Assembly (NCBI GenBank): GCA_021324755.1
Contig: JAJPIL010000006.1
Coordinates: 113,109-177,108 of the forward strand
Length of the DNA stretch: 64,000 nt
Direction: 5' to 3'
DNA from: Pseudomonadota bacterium
GTDB taxonomy: Bacteria > Desulfobacterota > Binatia > Binatales > Binataceae
Part shown: positions 1,695 through 9,492 of the stretch, in pieces
Position numbering within the stretch: the first letter of the stretch is position 1
How the letters are laid out: each line of letters begins with the position of its first letter
Notes under the pieces: generated by a model
What the model saw: only the letters and a program-made list of their open reading frames with translations
Told to the model about the DNA's origin: nothing
The model's database searches: none
Program-made: the position numbers and the translations under genes

Positions 1695-3428
1695 TTAGTC
1701 AAACCTGTATCTCTCGGTCGCAAAACGGTAAAGGGGCCGCCACACCAAGCGATTGAGAGACATTACAATCGCCACCATCGAAAGCAACGCCAAAAGAATC
1801 ATCAGGTTGTCGCCGCTCTGATAGGTAGCGACGTCCAGCATAGCGCCCAGGCCAAGCACCTGGTAGTGGTGCCCTTGGTAGGTGAAATATTCCGAGACTA
1901 TAAGCGCGTTCCATCCCCCGCCCCACGCCGTAATACTTCCGGTAATCAGCGAAGGGGTCAAGGCTGGCAAGGTGAGTTTACGCCAGGTCGCGGTTCGGCT
2001 CAGGCCAAAGGCGCGCACCGCCTCGCGCAGATCCTCCGGTATTTGGCGCACACCGGCGGTCAGGTTAAAGAGAAGATACCATTGCATCCCCGTCAGAAGC
2101 AGAAGGACGGATGCAAGATTCATGTTGCCGGTCAGCTCAACCACGGCTGCCACTATCAACGGAAACAGAGCTGTGGCGGGAATTGAGCCTGCAATCTGAG
2201 CGATGGGAGCTAATCGCCTACTGAAGCGCTGGCTTTCGCTTGCCGCCAGCGCACATGGTAAGGTCCAGGCCAGAGACAGAGCATAGGCGATCATCAGACG
2301 CAAAATCGAGGCTCCCGCCGCAAGCGGTATCAGATGCGCTTGCGCGGGCCAGGGCCTGCGTAGCACGCGTATCAACGCCACAAGCCCGTCGCCTGCGCCA
2401 TACAAGACAAGCGCGATCAATGCGCCGCCTAGAACGCGACGTATTGCCCGCCACAGCGCCCCACAGGAGAGCAAAGCGCTTATCGAGCGCTTATACCAGC
2501 CGGGCATGCGCGCCTTAACCACGCCCCAAGCTAATCGCACAACTGACGCCCCGGCTCGAACCAATCGTAGAACAAAAGGTGCGAGAGGACTCCCTATAGT
2601 GGCGATCTGAGGCGTAAGGGTGCCTGCCGCAAACTCGTAGCGAAACTTCTCCGCCCATACCGACAACGGTTGCCACACCAGAAAGTCCATCGTAACGATA
2701 ACAAACAGAAGCGCCAGCAGGCCGGCTATTAGCGGCCCGACTTGCCCTGTCTCCGCGCTGTCCATCAGAAGAGTTCCAAGTCCCGGCAATTTATAACGCG
2801 CGTCGCCAATCGTGATAATCTCGCACGCGATCAGAAAGTACCAGGCGGCGACCCACGACAAGATCGAGTTGTAGACGAGCTTCGGAATGCTTGCCGGCAA
2901 AAACAGCCGCTTGAACCGCAACCATCCGTTGCCCCCATAGGCGGCCACAGCCTCGGCGATGTCGGTTGGGATCGTCTTGATCGCCTCGAATACCCCCAAC
3001 GCCATATTCCACGCTTGGCTGGTAAAGATGAGAAAAATGGACGCAAGCTCAATTCCAAACCGTGTATTGCCGCCGAGTGAAATAAAAAAATAAATCGCGG
3101 CCGGGAAAAACCCGATTACGGGAACTGATTGAGCAACGTCGATTATCGGGATCATGATTCGCTCAGCCAAAGGCGTTCTGGCTGCCGTGATCCCGTAGGA
3201 AATGGCGAAAATTAGCGAAAGGAAGTAAGCGATGAGAACCCGATAGAGTGAACAAAACGTGTAGTACGGAATTTGCGAAAGTGAAACTCTCAGCTCAGAG
3301 CGTCCTAGCGCTAACCGGGGCTGCAAGCGAAAGAACAGCGCCACGATTATGGCGACCGCAAGCAACGACAGGATGCCCTTGAACGCTCTACTTAAACTCA
3401 GCTCGCTCGAAGTTCTGAACTCCTTCAT
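1695..3428 (-). CDS. ABC transporter permease with two fused inner-membrane domains
   Basis: This 577-residue membrane protein is built from two copies of the binding-protein-dependent permease domain (BPD_transp_1), roughly residues 50-270 and 330-570. Each half carries an EAA-type coupling loop: EAVAAYGGNGWLRFKRLFLP in the first and EAVRAFGLSRTATWRKLTLP in the second. The fusion supplies both transmembrane halves of an importer, so one polypeptide plus an ATPase dimer could form the transporter. I chose ATG at 3428; two in-frame TTG codons lie directly upstream. It is the first gene of the leftward operon with the ATPase and AAA-associated genes. The absence of a binding protein in the operon is unusual for this family. 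Confidence 0.88.
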   Translation of the reverse strand: MKEFRTSSELSLSRAFKGILSLLAVAIIVALFFRLQPRLALGRSELRVSLSQIPYYTFCSLYRVLIAYFLSLIFAISYGITAARTPLAERIMIPIIDVAQSVPVIGFFPAAIYFFISLGGNTRFGIELASIFLIFTSQAWNMALGVFEAIKTIPTDIAEAVAAYGGNGWLRFKRLFLPASIPKLVYNSILSWVAAWYFLIACEIITIGDARYKLPGLGTLLMDSAETGQVGPLIAGLLALLFVIVTMDFLVWQPLSVWAEKFRYEFAAGTLTPQIATIGSPLAPFVLRLVRAGASVVRLAWGVVKARMPGWYKRSISALLSCGALWRAIRRVLGGALIALVLYGAGDGLVALIRVLRRPWPAQAHLIPLAAGASILRLMIAYALSLAWTLPCALAASESQRFSRRLAPIAQIAGSIPATALFPLIVAAVVELTGNMNLASVLLLLTGMQWYLLFNLTAGVRQIPEDLREAVRAFGLSRTATWRKLTLPALTPSLITGSITAWGGGWNALIVSEYFTYQGHHYQVLGLGAMLDVATYQSGDNLMILLALLSMVAIVMSLNRLVWRPLYRFATERYRFD

Positions 3429-3434
3429 CAACAA

Positions 3435-5354: not shown

Positions 5355-6209
5355 ATGGTTCAATTGGTTGGCGCGTTGGCTGAAATATGGCGTTACCCAG
5401 TTAAGTCGATGATGGGTGAGCGTCTCGGTCAAGTTACGCTCGGGAAGGAGGGAGTTGACGGCGACCGACGCTGGGCGTTTGTCAACGCGGCGACCAAACG
5501 AGTTCTGAGCGCGAAAAAGTGGCCGCAGCTACTCTCGTTCACCGCAAGCTATCAAAGCTCTATCTTTGGCGCAGAAGACCCAAGATGCCCCGTAATCACA
5601 GCGCCCGACGGTACGAAGCTGCCAAAGGAAAGGGATGAGATCAACAGAAAAATATCAGAAGTTCTCGGCTGCCAGGTCGAGCTCGTGAGGGCGCAGCCTA
5701 AGCAGAGCTTGACAGCCGAAATGGACGCCGACACCGTTTTTGGCGATGTGCCATGGGAACTAATCAAACCGTCATGGGTCAATATCAGCAGAGCCGAAAT
5801 CCCAGACTATTTCTCATTGGCGCCAGGAAGCTTTTTTGACGCGGCACCTTTGCATCTTCTAACCAGCGCGACGCTCGAGTTGGTGCGGGGCACGAGCGGG
5901 CCAGACGCGCAGGTGGATGCGCGACGGTTTCGGCCTAACTTGGTGGTCCGGACTTTGCCGACTTTTGAAGGCCTTTGCGAAGAGAAATGGATCGGTCGCA
6001 CGCTAAGAGTGGGTCGTGAAGCGGTGGTCGAAGTCCAGCGAGCTGTACCGCGTTGTGTGATGACTACGCATCACCAGGCCGAACTAAGGCGCGACCTGCG
6101 GATTCTTCGTGCAATTGCGAATCTCAACCGCGGGTTTCTCGGCGTGTTCTGCCGAATCGAACGTGAAGGGCTTATCCACGAGGGTGACGAAGTTTTGCTC
6201 TGCGATTAG
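5355..6209 (+). CDS. MOSC domain protein (YcbX/mARC-like)
   Basis: The 284-residue protein starts with the beta-barrel domain that precedes MOSC domains (IWRYPVKSMMGE near residues 11-22, then GDRRWAF), followed by a MOSC domain from about residue 140. The segment PRCVMTTHHQ near residue 232 holds the conserved Cys expected to bind the molybdenum cofactor, and RRFRPNLVV is also typical. Relatives such as YcbX and mARC reduce N-hydroxylated compounds using molybdopterin, but the C-terminal 2Fe-2S domain of YcbX is absent here, so electrons must come from another protein. It stands alone between spacers. The start is ATG with no strong ribosome site. Confidence 0.88.
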   Translation: MVQLVGALAEIWRYPVKSMMGERLGQVTLGKEGVDGDRRWAFVNAATKRVLSAKKWPQLLSFTASYQSSIFGAEDPRCPVITAPDGTKLPKERDEINRKISEVLGCQVELVRAQPKQSLTAEMDADTVFGDVPWELIKPSWVNISRAEIPDYFSLAPGSFFDAAPLHLLTSATLELVRGTSGPDAQVDARRFRPNLVVRTLPTFEGLCEEKWIGRTLRVGREAVVEVQRAVPRCVMTTHHQAELRRDLRILRAIANLNRGFLGVFCRIEREGLIHEGDEVLLCD

Positions 6210-6359
6210 CCTCGAGTCGGCTCCGTTCTAAAACCTGGCCAAAACTTTTAGCAGCGCGCCTGTGTGGTGCGCCGAGAAGCTGGCAAGGAGCGCATCGGCC
6301 GGCTAAGCGAGATGGTAAATCGACTAGTTTCGAGCGTTTAGCTAACTTCTGCACGACAG

Positions 6360-7307
6360 ATGAGCGACGATAGGGTGAAGATCAGCAAGAGCGAGCTTTT
6401 AGTTGTTGGTTATGGTTCCCTGATGAGCGGAACCGGATTGCTCGGCGTATGTCGCGGCGGGCGAACTGCGCTTAGGGCGAAGGACGCCTTCCCGGTGCTT
6501 TTGCGCAATGTGCGTCGGGGGCTTGCGAAACCTTCGTCGCACGGCAAATACCTGGCCATGGATATCGAACCGCTGGCTCTGGGAAGCCCGTTTAGAGGGC
6601 GAATCGGGCTTTGGCCGCGTTCTGGAGAGATTGGAGCCCTGGGATTGGTGTTCGACAAGGGTTGCGCAAGGGCTATTGCTTGGCGTGAAGAGTATGATGC
6701 GCAAAAGTTCGTGGAGCTGTTGGATCGTGCCGAGCACGCCGGGCTTTCTTTGGGCGAGTTCCTGTTGGATATCGCCGAACGATGCCAACATCGCCTGGAG
6801 GCGTACCGGTCGGCGCTCTACGAGCTTCTGGGCTATACTTCTGCCGGGTATATATTTCATCCAGTAGTCTTGGATGAAGGGGCGACCGGAATTATCGCGG
6901 TCGCCTCCGGTTACGAAGGGAGCGGTTCGCCCGACGTCATTTCGCGGCGGCGAGAATTCGGTATAGCTCGCCTGTTGAATCTAGAACAAGCGATGAGCGT
7001 GCCGAGCTGCTGCGTGGACCGAAAGGGGCAGATTGGCTATGTTGTGGAATGCCTGTTGGGGGCACTCCATGGTCTTGATTTGAGCGACATTGTCGCGCTT
7101 GTCGATGGGCGCAGTGAGCTGGCCGAACAGGTGGCGTTCAAGCTTATGCGTGGCGCGCAAATGGAGCTAAGCCGGTTTCTTGAGGCAACGTCACTTAGTG
7201 AGCGCGATTATCGGGCACGATTTCGTTACGGGTGGTCGCGCTCGGTATCTGCGCTTATCGAGCTTGTCGCTTATCGTCCATACGAGGGACGTGATGAGCG
7301 CTGGTAA
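6360..7307 (+). CDS. Gamma-glutamylcyclotransferase-fold protein
   Basis: This 315-residue cytoplasmic protein has VVGYGSLMSGTGL at residues 15-27, the GYGSL substrate-loop motif of the GGCT/AIG2 fold, and further blocks typical of that fold in the first half (LLRNVRRGLAKPS, RIGLWPRSGEIGALGLVFD). The C-terminal ~150 residues are helical and not recognised. Members of the fold cyclise gamma-glutamyl groups, but many are uncharacterised and I cannot place the catalytic acid with confidence. The stop overlaps the start of the following pterin gene by 14 nt, which argues for coupled translation and a shared pathway. Confidence 0.6.
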   Translation: MSDDRVKISKSELLVVGYGSLMSGTGLLGVCRGGRTALRAKDAFPVLLRNVRRGLAKPSSHGKYLAMDIEPLALGSPFRGRIGLWPRSGEIGALGLVFDKGCARAIAWREEYDAQKFVELLDRAEHAGLSLGEFLLDIAERCQHRLEAYRSALYELLGYTSAGYIFHPVVLDEGATGIIAVASGYEGSGSPDVISRRREFGIARLLNLEQAMSVPSCCVDRKGQIGYVVECLLGALHGLDLSDIVALVDGRSELAEQVAFKLMRGAQMELSRFLEATSLSERDYRARFRYGWSRSVSALIELVAYRPYEGRDERW

Positions 7308-7791
7308 GTTCTCGGTCGTGGTCGCAAAGGAAAACCTCAAGTTTTCCGCTGCGCATTTTATCGCTTATCCGGGATTTCGCGAGCCGCTGCACGGCCATAA
7401 CTATCAAGTTGGGGTTCGAGTCGAAGGCTCCCTCTCCCCAACTGGTTATGTGCTCGATTTTGGTCTGGTCAAAGAGCTCGTGCGGGAGATCGTCAGCGGT
7501 TTAGACGGGCGGACAATTTTGCCGGCCGCAAGCGATTGTCTCGAGTTCGACGAGCTAGACCACCGCCGCATAAGGGTGCGGTTCGGCGTGGATGAGTTTG
7601 TCTTTCCTGCAGACGACGTGCGATTGCTTCCAATCGCGCACAGCTCGGCCGAAGAGTTGGCACGGTACATCTGCAGCGAGCTCGTGGAGCGACTTCGCGG
7701 GCGAAATGCGCTGAGCGGACTTGCTTGCGTGGAGGTTTCCGTGGCCGAAGCGCCGGGCCAGATGGCGTGCTACAGGGAGAGTCTCGCGTAA
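7294..7791 (+). CDS. 6-pyruvoyl-tetrahydropterin synthase paralog, PTPS-III type
   Basis: The start is ATG 7294, preceded by GAGGGA and lying inside the end of the upstream gene. The 165-residue protein has the PTPS zinc ligands His21 (FSAAHF) and His33/His35 (HGH). The catalytic Cys of QueD and PTPS-II is absent; instead Glu30 sits three residues before the HGH, giving the E-x-x-HGH motif. That motif defines PTPS-III, which can convert dihydroneopterin triphosphate to 6-hydroxymethyl-dihydropterin and so replace dihydroneopterin aldolase (FolB) in folate synthesis. The C-terminal AEAPGQMA segment carries a conserved acidic residue. A role in folate rather than queuosine is therefore the best prediction. 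Confidence 0.85.
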   Translation: MSAGKFSVVVAKENLKFSAAHFIAYPGFREPLHGHNYQVGVRVEGSLSPTGYVLDFGLVKELVREIVSGLDGRTILPAASDCLEFDELDHRRIRVRFGVDEFVFPADDVRLLPIAHSSAEELARYICSELVERLRGRNALSGLACVEVSVAEAPGQMACYRESLA

Positions 7792-7990
7792 GGCCAGGTT
7801 GGCCGTTTTAGCAGGGGCTGGGTCCACGAGTAAGCTCCCGCTGCCGAAGTCGGACAAGGCGTATCGATAAAGCGTGGCGGATGATGCGGTCGGTACGGTC
7901 ATTGACTGGATGTTTATCGAGCGACCGGTTGGCTAATTTTGGTGTTGCAAACGCGCCCAGTTGGCGAGCGCAACGGAACGCTACAACGGG

Positions 7991-9028
7991 ATGAGCTTCG
8001 CGGCCTCGAGGAATAGTACGGTTGACGATAGCGGTGCTGGCGCGGTGCGGCTTATCGGGGAACATCCTTCGATGGTCCGTTTGCGCGCTCTGATCGAGCG
8101 GGTTGCAGCAACCGACTCGACGGTGCTTATCAGCGGTGAAAGTGGAGTGGGGAAAGAATTGGTCGCCCGCTCCATTCATGAGCTTTCGGCGCGGCGAAAT
8201 CGCCCCTTTGTGGCCGTGAATTGCGCCGCTATACCCCAGGAGATGCTTGAATCGGAGATGTTCGGCCATGAGCGGGGCGCCTTTACCGGGGCGATAGCCG
8301 CGCGCCAAGGGCTGTTTGTTGCGGCCAACGGTGGCACGATTTTTTTGGACGAGATAGGCGACATGCCTCTGCTCTTGCAGGCGAAGCTCTTGCGCGTACT
8401 CGAGGAGCATCAGGTACGGCCGCTTGGCACTAATCGAACCATAACTGTCGACGTCCGGGTAATCGCAGCCACCAACCGCGACCTTGAGCGAGCGGTCAAG
8501 GAGAGAATTTTCCGCGAGGATTTGTACTACCGCCTGAAAGTCGTGCCGATCGTCGTGCCGCCGCTACGCCAGCGCCGAAGCGATATTCCGCTTTTGGTGT
8601 CTTACTTTCTCGAGCGCCTGCGCGCGCGTTTTCCGGGTCGGAACTGGACGATCAGCGACGACGCGATGGTCTATCTGTGGGCTTACGATTGGCCTGGTAA
8701 CGTGCGCGAGCTCGAAAACCTCCTGGAACGGCTCGTCGTTCTGAGCGATCGTGATTTGATCGAAGCTTCTCAACTGCCCGATGAGATACGTCGTGCAAGC
8801 GTCGGTGCGAGCGAAACCGAGTTCAACGTGGCCTTGGGTGAGGGCGGTATTGACCTGACCGCCTTGGTGCGCAGGATCGAAGGGCGATACATAAATGAAG
8901 CTCTGAAGCGAACGGGCGGCAACAAACAGGCAGCAGCCAAACTTCTGCGCCTCAAGCGCACGACGTTTTCGGCAAAGCTGCGCCGCTACGGAGTGGTAGA
9001 TACAGACAGCTCTGCTGAGAATTTGTGA
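7991..9028 (+). CDS. Sigma-54-dependent transcriptional activator lacking a receiver domain
   Basis: I use ATG 7991; an in-frame TTG at 7961 adds ten residues, and neither has a clear ribosome site. The protein has only ~20 residues before an AAA+ domain with Walker A GESGVGKE (about 49-56), the sigma-54 contact loop GAFTGA (96-101), Walker B FLDEIGD (118-124) and an arginine-finger region. The C-terminus is a Fis-type helix-turn-helix (GGNKQAAAKLLRLKRTTF). There is no N-terminal sensor or receiver domain, so it is either constitutively active or controlled in trans. The next gene, overlapping by 4 nt, encodes a lone receiver domain. It implies that RpoN is present elsewhere in the genome. 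Confidence 0.92.
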   Translation: MSFAASRNSTVDDSGAGAVRLIGEHPSMVRLRALIERVAATDSTVLISGESGVGKELVARSIHELSARRNRPFVAVNCAAIPQEMLESEMFGHERGAFTGAIAARQGLFVAANGGTIFLDEIGDMPLLLQAKLLRVLEEHQVRPLGTNRTITVDVRVIAATNRDLERAVKERIFREDLYYRLKVVPIVVPPLRQRRSDIPLLVSYFLERLRARFPGRNWTISDDAMVYLWAYDWPGNVRELENLLERLVVLSDRDLIEASQLPDEIRRASVGASETEFNVALGEGGIDLTALVRRIEGRYINEALKRTGGNKQAAAKLLRLKRTTFSAKLRRYGVVDTDSSAENL

Positions 9029-9492
9029 AAGGCAGTAGAACGAAAAGGCGCTCGTCGCGAGCCGGCGGGTCTTTAAGGCGCGTGATGATCGTCGACGACG
9101 ACGAGGATACGCGCGAGGTGCTGTCGCACCTTTTAACGCAGGCGGGGTTTCAACCCTGGCCGGTCGAAAGCGGGCGCGAGTGTCTACGCGTTGTGGACAA
9201 GGTAAACCCGGCAGTAATTGTGCTTGACTTGATGATGCCTGAGGTGGATGGCTTTGAGGTTTGCCGTGCACTCAAAGCGAACTCTAAAACCTCCCATATT
9301 CCGATCGTAGTGCTTACGGCAAGGGACGATTTTGAGGCTAGAAGTCAAGCGATGCGCGTAGGGGTTAGCGATTTCATTGTTAAGCCAGCCTCTAAAGACC
9401 GACTGATCGCGCGCCTGACCGAGCAAATTCAGCTGGCCGAGGCGCTGGAGCGAGCCGAAGCCAGCCTGAAGCGACTAAAAAAGGGGAGCTAA
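9025..9492 (+). CDS. Stand-alone response regulator receiver protein
   Basis: This 155-residue protein starts at GTG 9025, overlapping the stop of the sigma-54 activator (GTGA). It is a CheY-like receiver: acidic pair Asp25/Asp26 region (VDDDED), phospho-acceptor Asp68 in VLDLMMPEVDG, Thr98 in VLTAR and Lys120 in FIVKPAS. About 20 basic residues precede the domain, and a charged helix (about 130-155, rich in Glu, Ala, Lys) follows. There is no output domain and no histidine kinase gene nearby. Coupling to the receiver-less activator suggests that this receiver regulates it as a separate subunit. Confidence 0.9.
   Translation: MKGSRTKRRSSRAGGSLRRVMIVDDDEDTREVLSHLLTQAGFQPWPVESGRECLRVVDKVNPAVIVLDLMMPEVDGFEVCRALKANSKTSHIPIVVLTARDDFEARSQAMRVGVSDFIVKPASKDRLIARLTEQIQLAEALERAEASLKRLKKGS

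Follow-up and report, generated by a model that had tools for sequence, protein, structure and literature searches.

In GGCT, ChaC, and GGACT enzymes, a free alpha-amine attacks the gamma-carbonyl of the substrate to yield 5-oxoproline. PTPS-III enzymes, the subgroup of COG0720 that bypasses FolB, are exemplified by PFF1360w of Plasmodium falciparum (structure 1y13). PMC5041015 lists ExxHGH as the signature of PTPS-III and CxxxHGH as that of QueD, and PMC2229834 reports that parasite PTPS no longer made 6-hydroxymethyl-dihydropterin once its Glu was replaced by Cys, Gln, or Leu. The uncultured class Binatia, whose bacteria live in soil and are widespread, is described in PMC8262859 as methylotrophic by way of the serine pathway and as lacking H4MPT-linked formaldehyde oxidation; because of this mode of methylotrophy, folate is probably central to Binatia. 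The same statement led us to set aside H4MPT synthesis as a use of the pterin discussed below. Our literature search found no text on folate synthesis in Binatota and none joining the cyclotransferase fold with PTPS; the one paper found with both enzyme names was a ferroptosis review.

The window, which is the whole 64,000-nucleotide stretch of DNA analyzed here, comes from a 3.07-Mb metagenome-assembled genome, assigned to this class through its relatives, that is 95% complete and has a single PTPS gene. In the window, this gene overlaps one for a 315-amino acid protein whose predicted structure makes it a remote member of the gamma-glutamylcyclotransferase fold; the protein represents a previously unrecognized family linked to PTPS-III. 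The locus is accordingly a known type of enzyme joined to a new, linked cyclotransferase-fold family, with the following features:

6360..7307, plus strand: gene for the 315-amino acid protein of predicted cyclotransferase fold (P0002; open reading frame)
6411..6422, plus strand: Y18-G19-S20-L21 codons, putative gamma-glutamyl binding loop (conservation in alignment A3)
6687..6689, plus strand: E110 codon, putative acid/base Glu in R109-E110-x-Y112 (conservation; follows strand 91-99 and helix 100-109 in the model)
7284..7289, plus strand: GAGGGA, a possible ribosome-binding site for PTPS that lies within the 315-amino acid gene, 4 nt before the ATG (read from the sequence)
7294..7791, plus strand: gene for the PTPS-III type pterin enzyme (P0001), 165 amino acids, ATG at 7294 (open reading frame, PF01242 match)
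7381..7398, plus strand: E30-P-L-H33-G-H35 codons, ExxHGH signature (invariant residues in 28/28)

The two genes overlap by 14 nt (7294-7307). Two observations support 7294 as the PTPS start: relatives start at nearly the same position, and GAGGGA is found just 5' of it. From the overlap and the short spacings in relatives, the two genes are probably co-transcribed as a small unit. Scanning 6150-8050 for promoters and terminators yielded nothing above shuffled sequence, and the only Rfam matches in the window at gathering thresholds were six tRNAs, with no THF or preQ1 riboswitch upstream of the pair. The outer neighbors are a MOSC protein gene upstream and genes for a sigma-54 activator and a response regulator downstream. 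Elsewhere in the window, a 579-amino acid open reading frame on the minus strand (1695-3434) resembles, by eye, a pair of ABC permease units joined into a single chain.

The PTPS protein matches PF01242 at 1.6e-21 (77 bits; cut-off 22.4), which places it in PF01242/COG0720, and its closest solved relatives are Plasmodium PTPS 1y13 (1e-32) and 2a0s. Its motif stretch reads R29-E30-P31-L32-H33-G34-H35. Among 28 aligned PTPS proteins from the class, E30, H33, G34, H35, and H21 are invariant, and none has a Cys within positions 22-32. The histidines H21, H33, and H35, kept in 28/28, are presumably the zinc ligands, as in rat PTPS. The window protein falls below the cut-offs of the QueD and 6PTHBS models (QueD, 51.3 versus 89.25 bits) and has neither the Cys of CxxxHGH nor a score at the cut-off of the QueD (PTPS-I) model. 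The resemblance to the Plasmodium PTPS-III extends from the 1e-32 match to the motif (FREPLHGH here, FRETLH in the parasite), the absence of the Cys, and the missing folB. Unlike the parasite enzyme, the window protein is bacterial, from a class not linked to PTPS-III in the literature that we found, and the LDH Asp-His dyad of Plasmodium PTPS reads LDG, so that the second catalytic His is Gly, a detail not noted in an earlier reading of the window from sequence alone. Glu occupies the dyad His position in 22 of the 28 class members, Phe in four, His in one, and Gly in one; the loss of the dyad, with His missing in 27/28, counts against a simple copy of PTPS-III.

FolE, FolK, and FolC are all present in the window's genome. 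FolB (PF02152), which is predicted to share its step with PTPS and was not detected as related to it by the profiles used, is absent from this 95% complete genome, in contrast to family f12, where all eight genomes have it. That earlier, sequence-only reading of the window had described the 14-nt overlap of the PTPS gene with the 315-residue gene, assigned the enzyme to PTPS-III from its ExxHGH motif and lack of the catalytic Cys, and named a normal folB, together with queuosine genes elsewhere and no conserved pairing, as what would weaken its case. Both descriptions hold, the second throughout the class members aligned, and the search for folB came back empty.

This pattern extends across the class. 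Among 145 genomes, PTPS is found in 125 and FolB in 12, with FolB in 3/125 PTPS carriers versus 9/20 non-carriers (Fisher p 4.9e-7, kinship ignored). The three genomes with both genes (G045, G070, and G084) all belong to family f6, nine have FolB without PTPS (8/8 of f12, plus G101), and 11 have neither; much of the exclusion signal stems from one family. Because genomes with PTPS mostly lack FolB and vice versa, and because the ExxHGH motif and zinc histidines are kept and the Cys is lacking, the folate-bypass reading is well supported, and we hold with high confidence that PTPS-III bypasses FolB here. FolE would make dihydroneopterin triphosphate, the substrate of PTPS, in which Glu30 would stand in for the usual Cys, with Zn held by H21, H33, and H35. 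The enzyme would then cleave the side chain to give 6-hydroxymethyl-dihydropterin for FolK, bypassing the absent FolB. By the data presented here, most of the class Binatia appears to make folate via PTPS-III instead of FolB.

Two parts of this survey stand apart. Family f12 (eight genomes) has FolB and no PTPS, 315-residue protein, or glutathione synthetase family (GshB) match, a cofactor make-up unlike that of the rest of the class. G101, which unlike its genus mates has FolB and lacks both PTPS and the 315-residue protein, was considered as a natural replacement and given no weight beyond the counts; it may be a mixed bin, because GshB is absent as in f12 and the assembly has 1200 contigs.

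The 315-residue protein escapes sequence profiles. In 21/21 members of its family, not one Pfam family matched at E up to 10, including the cyclotransferase-fold families GGACT, ChaC, and AIG2. NCBIfam and PDB sequence profiles likewise gave no match of weight, and a PDB profile search with A3 returned only chance hits. In contrast, an AlphaFold2 model built with 32 sequences (pLDDT 93.3, pTM 0.92) found ChaC2 and GGCT as its top Foldseek matches. Comparison by VIA gave Z 10.9 to Bacillus YkqA (2qik) and human GGCT (2rbh, 3cry) and 9.8 to ChaC2 (6ky0, 6ky1) and the yeast enzyme (5hwi), whereas AIG2-like and allophanate hydrolase domains reached no more than 6.7; among the VIA matches listed, nine have Z above 8, all of the cyclotransferase fold class, and further fold matches may exist beyond this list. 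The model has its core fold in common with these four kinds of protein (Z 9.6-10.9, rmsd 2.6-4.0 over 140-162 residues, 13-15% identity). A viral structure library yielded cyclotransferase-like proteins of giant viruses at E 0.01 at best. Thus, on the evidence of the predicted structure, the protein has a gamma-glutamylcyclotransferase fold. The sequence-only reading, which had called this fold from a YGSLM motif, was right, as the Foldseek and VIA matches of the model indicate, although no sequence profile detects it.

The family keeps the YGSL loop of known cyclotransferases and, in RE-x-Y context, a Glu that would correspond to theirs. In A3, G19, S20, and L21 are kept in 32/32 rows and Y18 in 26/32, with His in the other six; the residues YGS are named as conserved in the cyclotransferase family in PMC7022552. 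E110 is present in 32/32 rows of A3 and 20/21 of A1, which takes in members from families f11 and f15 that are absent from A3; the one row without it is L079, a member linked to PTPS. Judging from the motif and from topology, that is, the order of elements, E110 is the putative equivalent of GGCT Glu98 and ChaC2 Glu83. The invariant residues in the 32 rows of A3 are G19-S20-L21, R53, K57, E70, R109, E110, Y149, Y164, Q224, C231, D243, and E269. At 315 residues, the protein is longer than GGCT, ChaC2, and the yeast enzyme (about 170-230), with additional helices in two stretches, 114-157 and within 196-304. The invariant Cys, at A1 position 231 (window 7050-7052), lies in the helical C-terminal part.

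When 84,980 species were scanned with an alignment of this protein, 43 loci were found, all 43 of which lie, by coordinates, in genomes of the class Binatia, two of them being assigned to two genome handles by coordinates alone. Their records carry titles such as Candidatus Binataceae, Candidatus Binatus soli, Candidatus Binatia, and Deltaproteobacteria MAGs; another, L143, is titled Klebsiella pneumoniae and appears to be mislabelled, its contig belonging to a Binatia-class genome. No relative was found in the plasmids searched. The scan relied on a pair of peptide patterns and failed to recover 16 of the 58 carriers, including the window's own genome (which the scan may leave out), so restriction of the family to the class is likely rather than proven. 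Within the class, the family occurs at 59 places in 58/145 genomes. PTPS is present in 57 of these 58, and the 315-residue protein is found in 0/12 FolB genomes and is absent from 68/125 PTPS genomes; PTPS therefore does not need it.

At 51 of the 59 places, across four families, PTPS lies directly downstream of the 315-residue protein on the same strand, with at most 165 nt from match to match. Three of the eight unpaired places are contig ends (G024, G029, and G011:C111), and five are real separations: G065, G058, and G046 in f7, G066 in f13, and G079 in f11. In the named set, PTPS is next door in 38/43 loci, and two of the other five end at a contig edge. The spacer in 20 fetched pairs runs from -11 to 71 nt and is under 50 nt in 16/20. 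The pairing is more than chance, and the absence of conserved pairing, which the sequence-only reading had named as part of its grounds for doubt, is not what the class shows. The genes outside the pair change from family to family: f1 has a UvrD-type helicase/nuclease and the sigma-54 activator, f5 a metallo-beta-lactamase-fold gene and an M24 peptidase, and f11 and f15 an M17 aminopeptidase. In trees of both proteins, the linked PTPS fall into three separate groups, and the unlinked f7 and f13 cyclotransferase-fold proteins sit among linked ones. This fits an old pair that has been broken at times, and it may also reflect re-joining.

PTPS genes that lack this partner have other neighbors. 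At six loci (L083, L084, L085, L091, L093, and L095), all from families that lack the cyclotransferase-fold protein, a tRNA-dihydrouridine synthase gene lies upstream, the Pfam Dus match having been run on L083 alone of the six. In f7, a HAD phosphatase-like gene is directly upstream of PTPS (L089, at 8479-9171; L097; L162; and L165), and at L085, in f6, such a gene sits between the dihydrouridine synthase gene and PTPS. The HAD phosphatase-like protein is a candidate for phosphate removal in the PTPS-III route.

That four families keep the pair although the other neighbors differ argues for a link, and we lean, by a little, towards one that is functional and selected. The partner's absence from FolB-using relatives (0/12) is a hint that it belongs with the PTPS route, a hint weakened by kinship, because f12 also lacks GshB. 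Taken as a whole, a PTPS-III bypass with a co-expressed cyclotransferase-fold partner is the explanation that we consider best and rate as reasonably probable; the f7 HAD phosphatase-like gene, which takes the partner's place before PTPS, counts against the simple form of this combined reading, as does the dependence of the genome-wide counts on kinship. The genes, motifs, fold prediction, pairing, and FolB exclusion are observed here, whereas catalysis by either protein, the operon, and the substrate are inferred. The partner would be co-expressed with pterin supply and, most likely, would form 5-oxoproline out of a gamma-glutamyl compound whose alpha-amine is free. That it is an active gamma-glutamyl cyclotransferase is plausible from fold and residues, although we stop somewhat short of expecting it. 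A family that is profile-less in Pfam and NCBIfam, class-confined in the scan, and kept beside PTPS in four families thus makes a concrete, testable pair.

The most serious rival is a ChaC-like role, because glutathione is probably available: the window's genome has a GshB match, as do 55/58 carriers of the cyclotransferase-fold protein, and glutathione is accordingly the more ordinary gamma-glutamyl substrate. The protein would then be an ordinary glutathione-degrading ChaC/GGCT-like cyclotransferase, consistent with ChaC2 and GGCT as its top Foldseek matches, and its place next to PTPS would be inherited synteny without functional meaning. Against this, the pairing persists in four families despite changed outer neighbors, GshB is also found in 69/87 genomes without the protein, and no ChaC or GGCT sequence profile detects it. 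On balance we regard this alternative as somewhat unlikely.

A role more closely tied to pterins can be proposed in two forms, each of which we judge clearly improbable. The first has the protein assist or regulate PTPS without catalysis of its own, perhaps as a subunit shielding or orienting the pterin site; the closely spaced genes and their long-conserved pairing are in keeping with this, as is the linked member L079 without E110, whereas the GSL loop, R53, K57, and otherwise E110 are nearly invariant and five genomes keep the protein apart from PTPS. The second makes it a dedicated Binatia enzyme of the pterin/folate pathway, acting on something that the PTPS-III route forms as an intermediate or by-product. 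Its substrate might then be a pterin compound that bears a gamma-glutamyl group or an amine, or else the phosphorylated two-carbon product, in which case it would stand in for the HAD enzyme of f7. If true, a role in folate synthesis would be a first, to our knowledge, for a protein of the cyclotransferase fold.

The link that the sequence-only reading had drawn, in which the protein acts on the gamma-glutamyl chains of folates, fares worse and is in our view very unlikely. Its fold class, its neighbor in a folate step, and the presence of FolC speak for it. In the textbook structure of an intact folylpolyglutamate, however, every alpha-amine is held in an amide bond, and because known cyclotransferases need that amine free, action on folate chains is unlikely; moreover, none of the 12 FolB-using class members has the protein, though they presumably make folylpolyglutamates. 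The preferred co-expressed partner would leave intact folylpolyglutamates alone.

Least probable of all, to the point of near dismissal, is that the PTPS is QueD for queuosine rather than a folate enzyme: TGT is present in the genome and a QueC-like protein scores 102.9 bits, but the motif lacks its Cys in every aligned member, the QueD score is far too low, the QueC-like protein reaches 73.1 against the 150.3 bits of the QueC equivalog cut-off, and FolB exclusion would be left unexplained. As to the queuosine genes that the sequence-only reading had named among its grounds for doubt, the genome offers a TGT and a QueC-like protein far below the QueC cut-off. Because FolE, FolK, and FolC are present, FolB is absent, and the QueC-like protein is below cut-off, a role in folate is well supported, unlike one in queuosine. 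Strong QueC matches occur in f2, in f12, and in a few genomes besides. The QueC-like protein of the window's genome (L153:6102-6824, on contig C10), at about 100 bits, is of a kind widespread in family f1 and is possibly a paralogue with another role.
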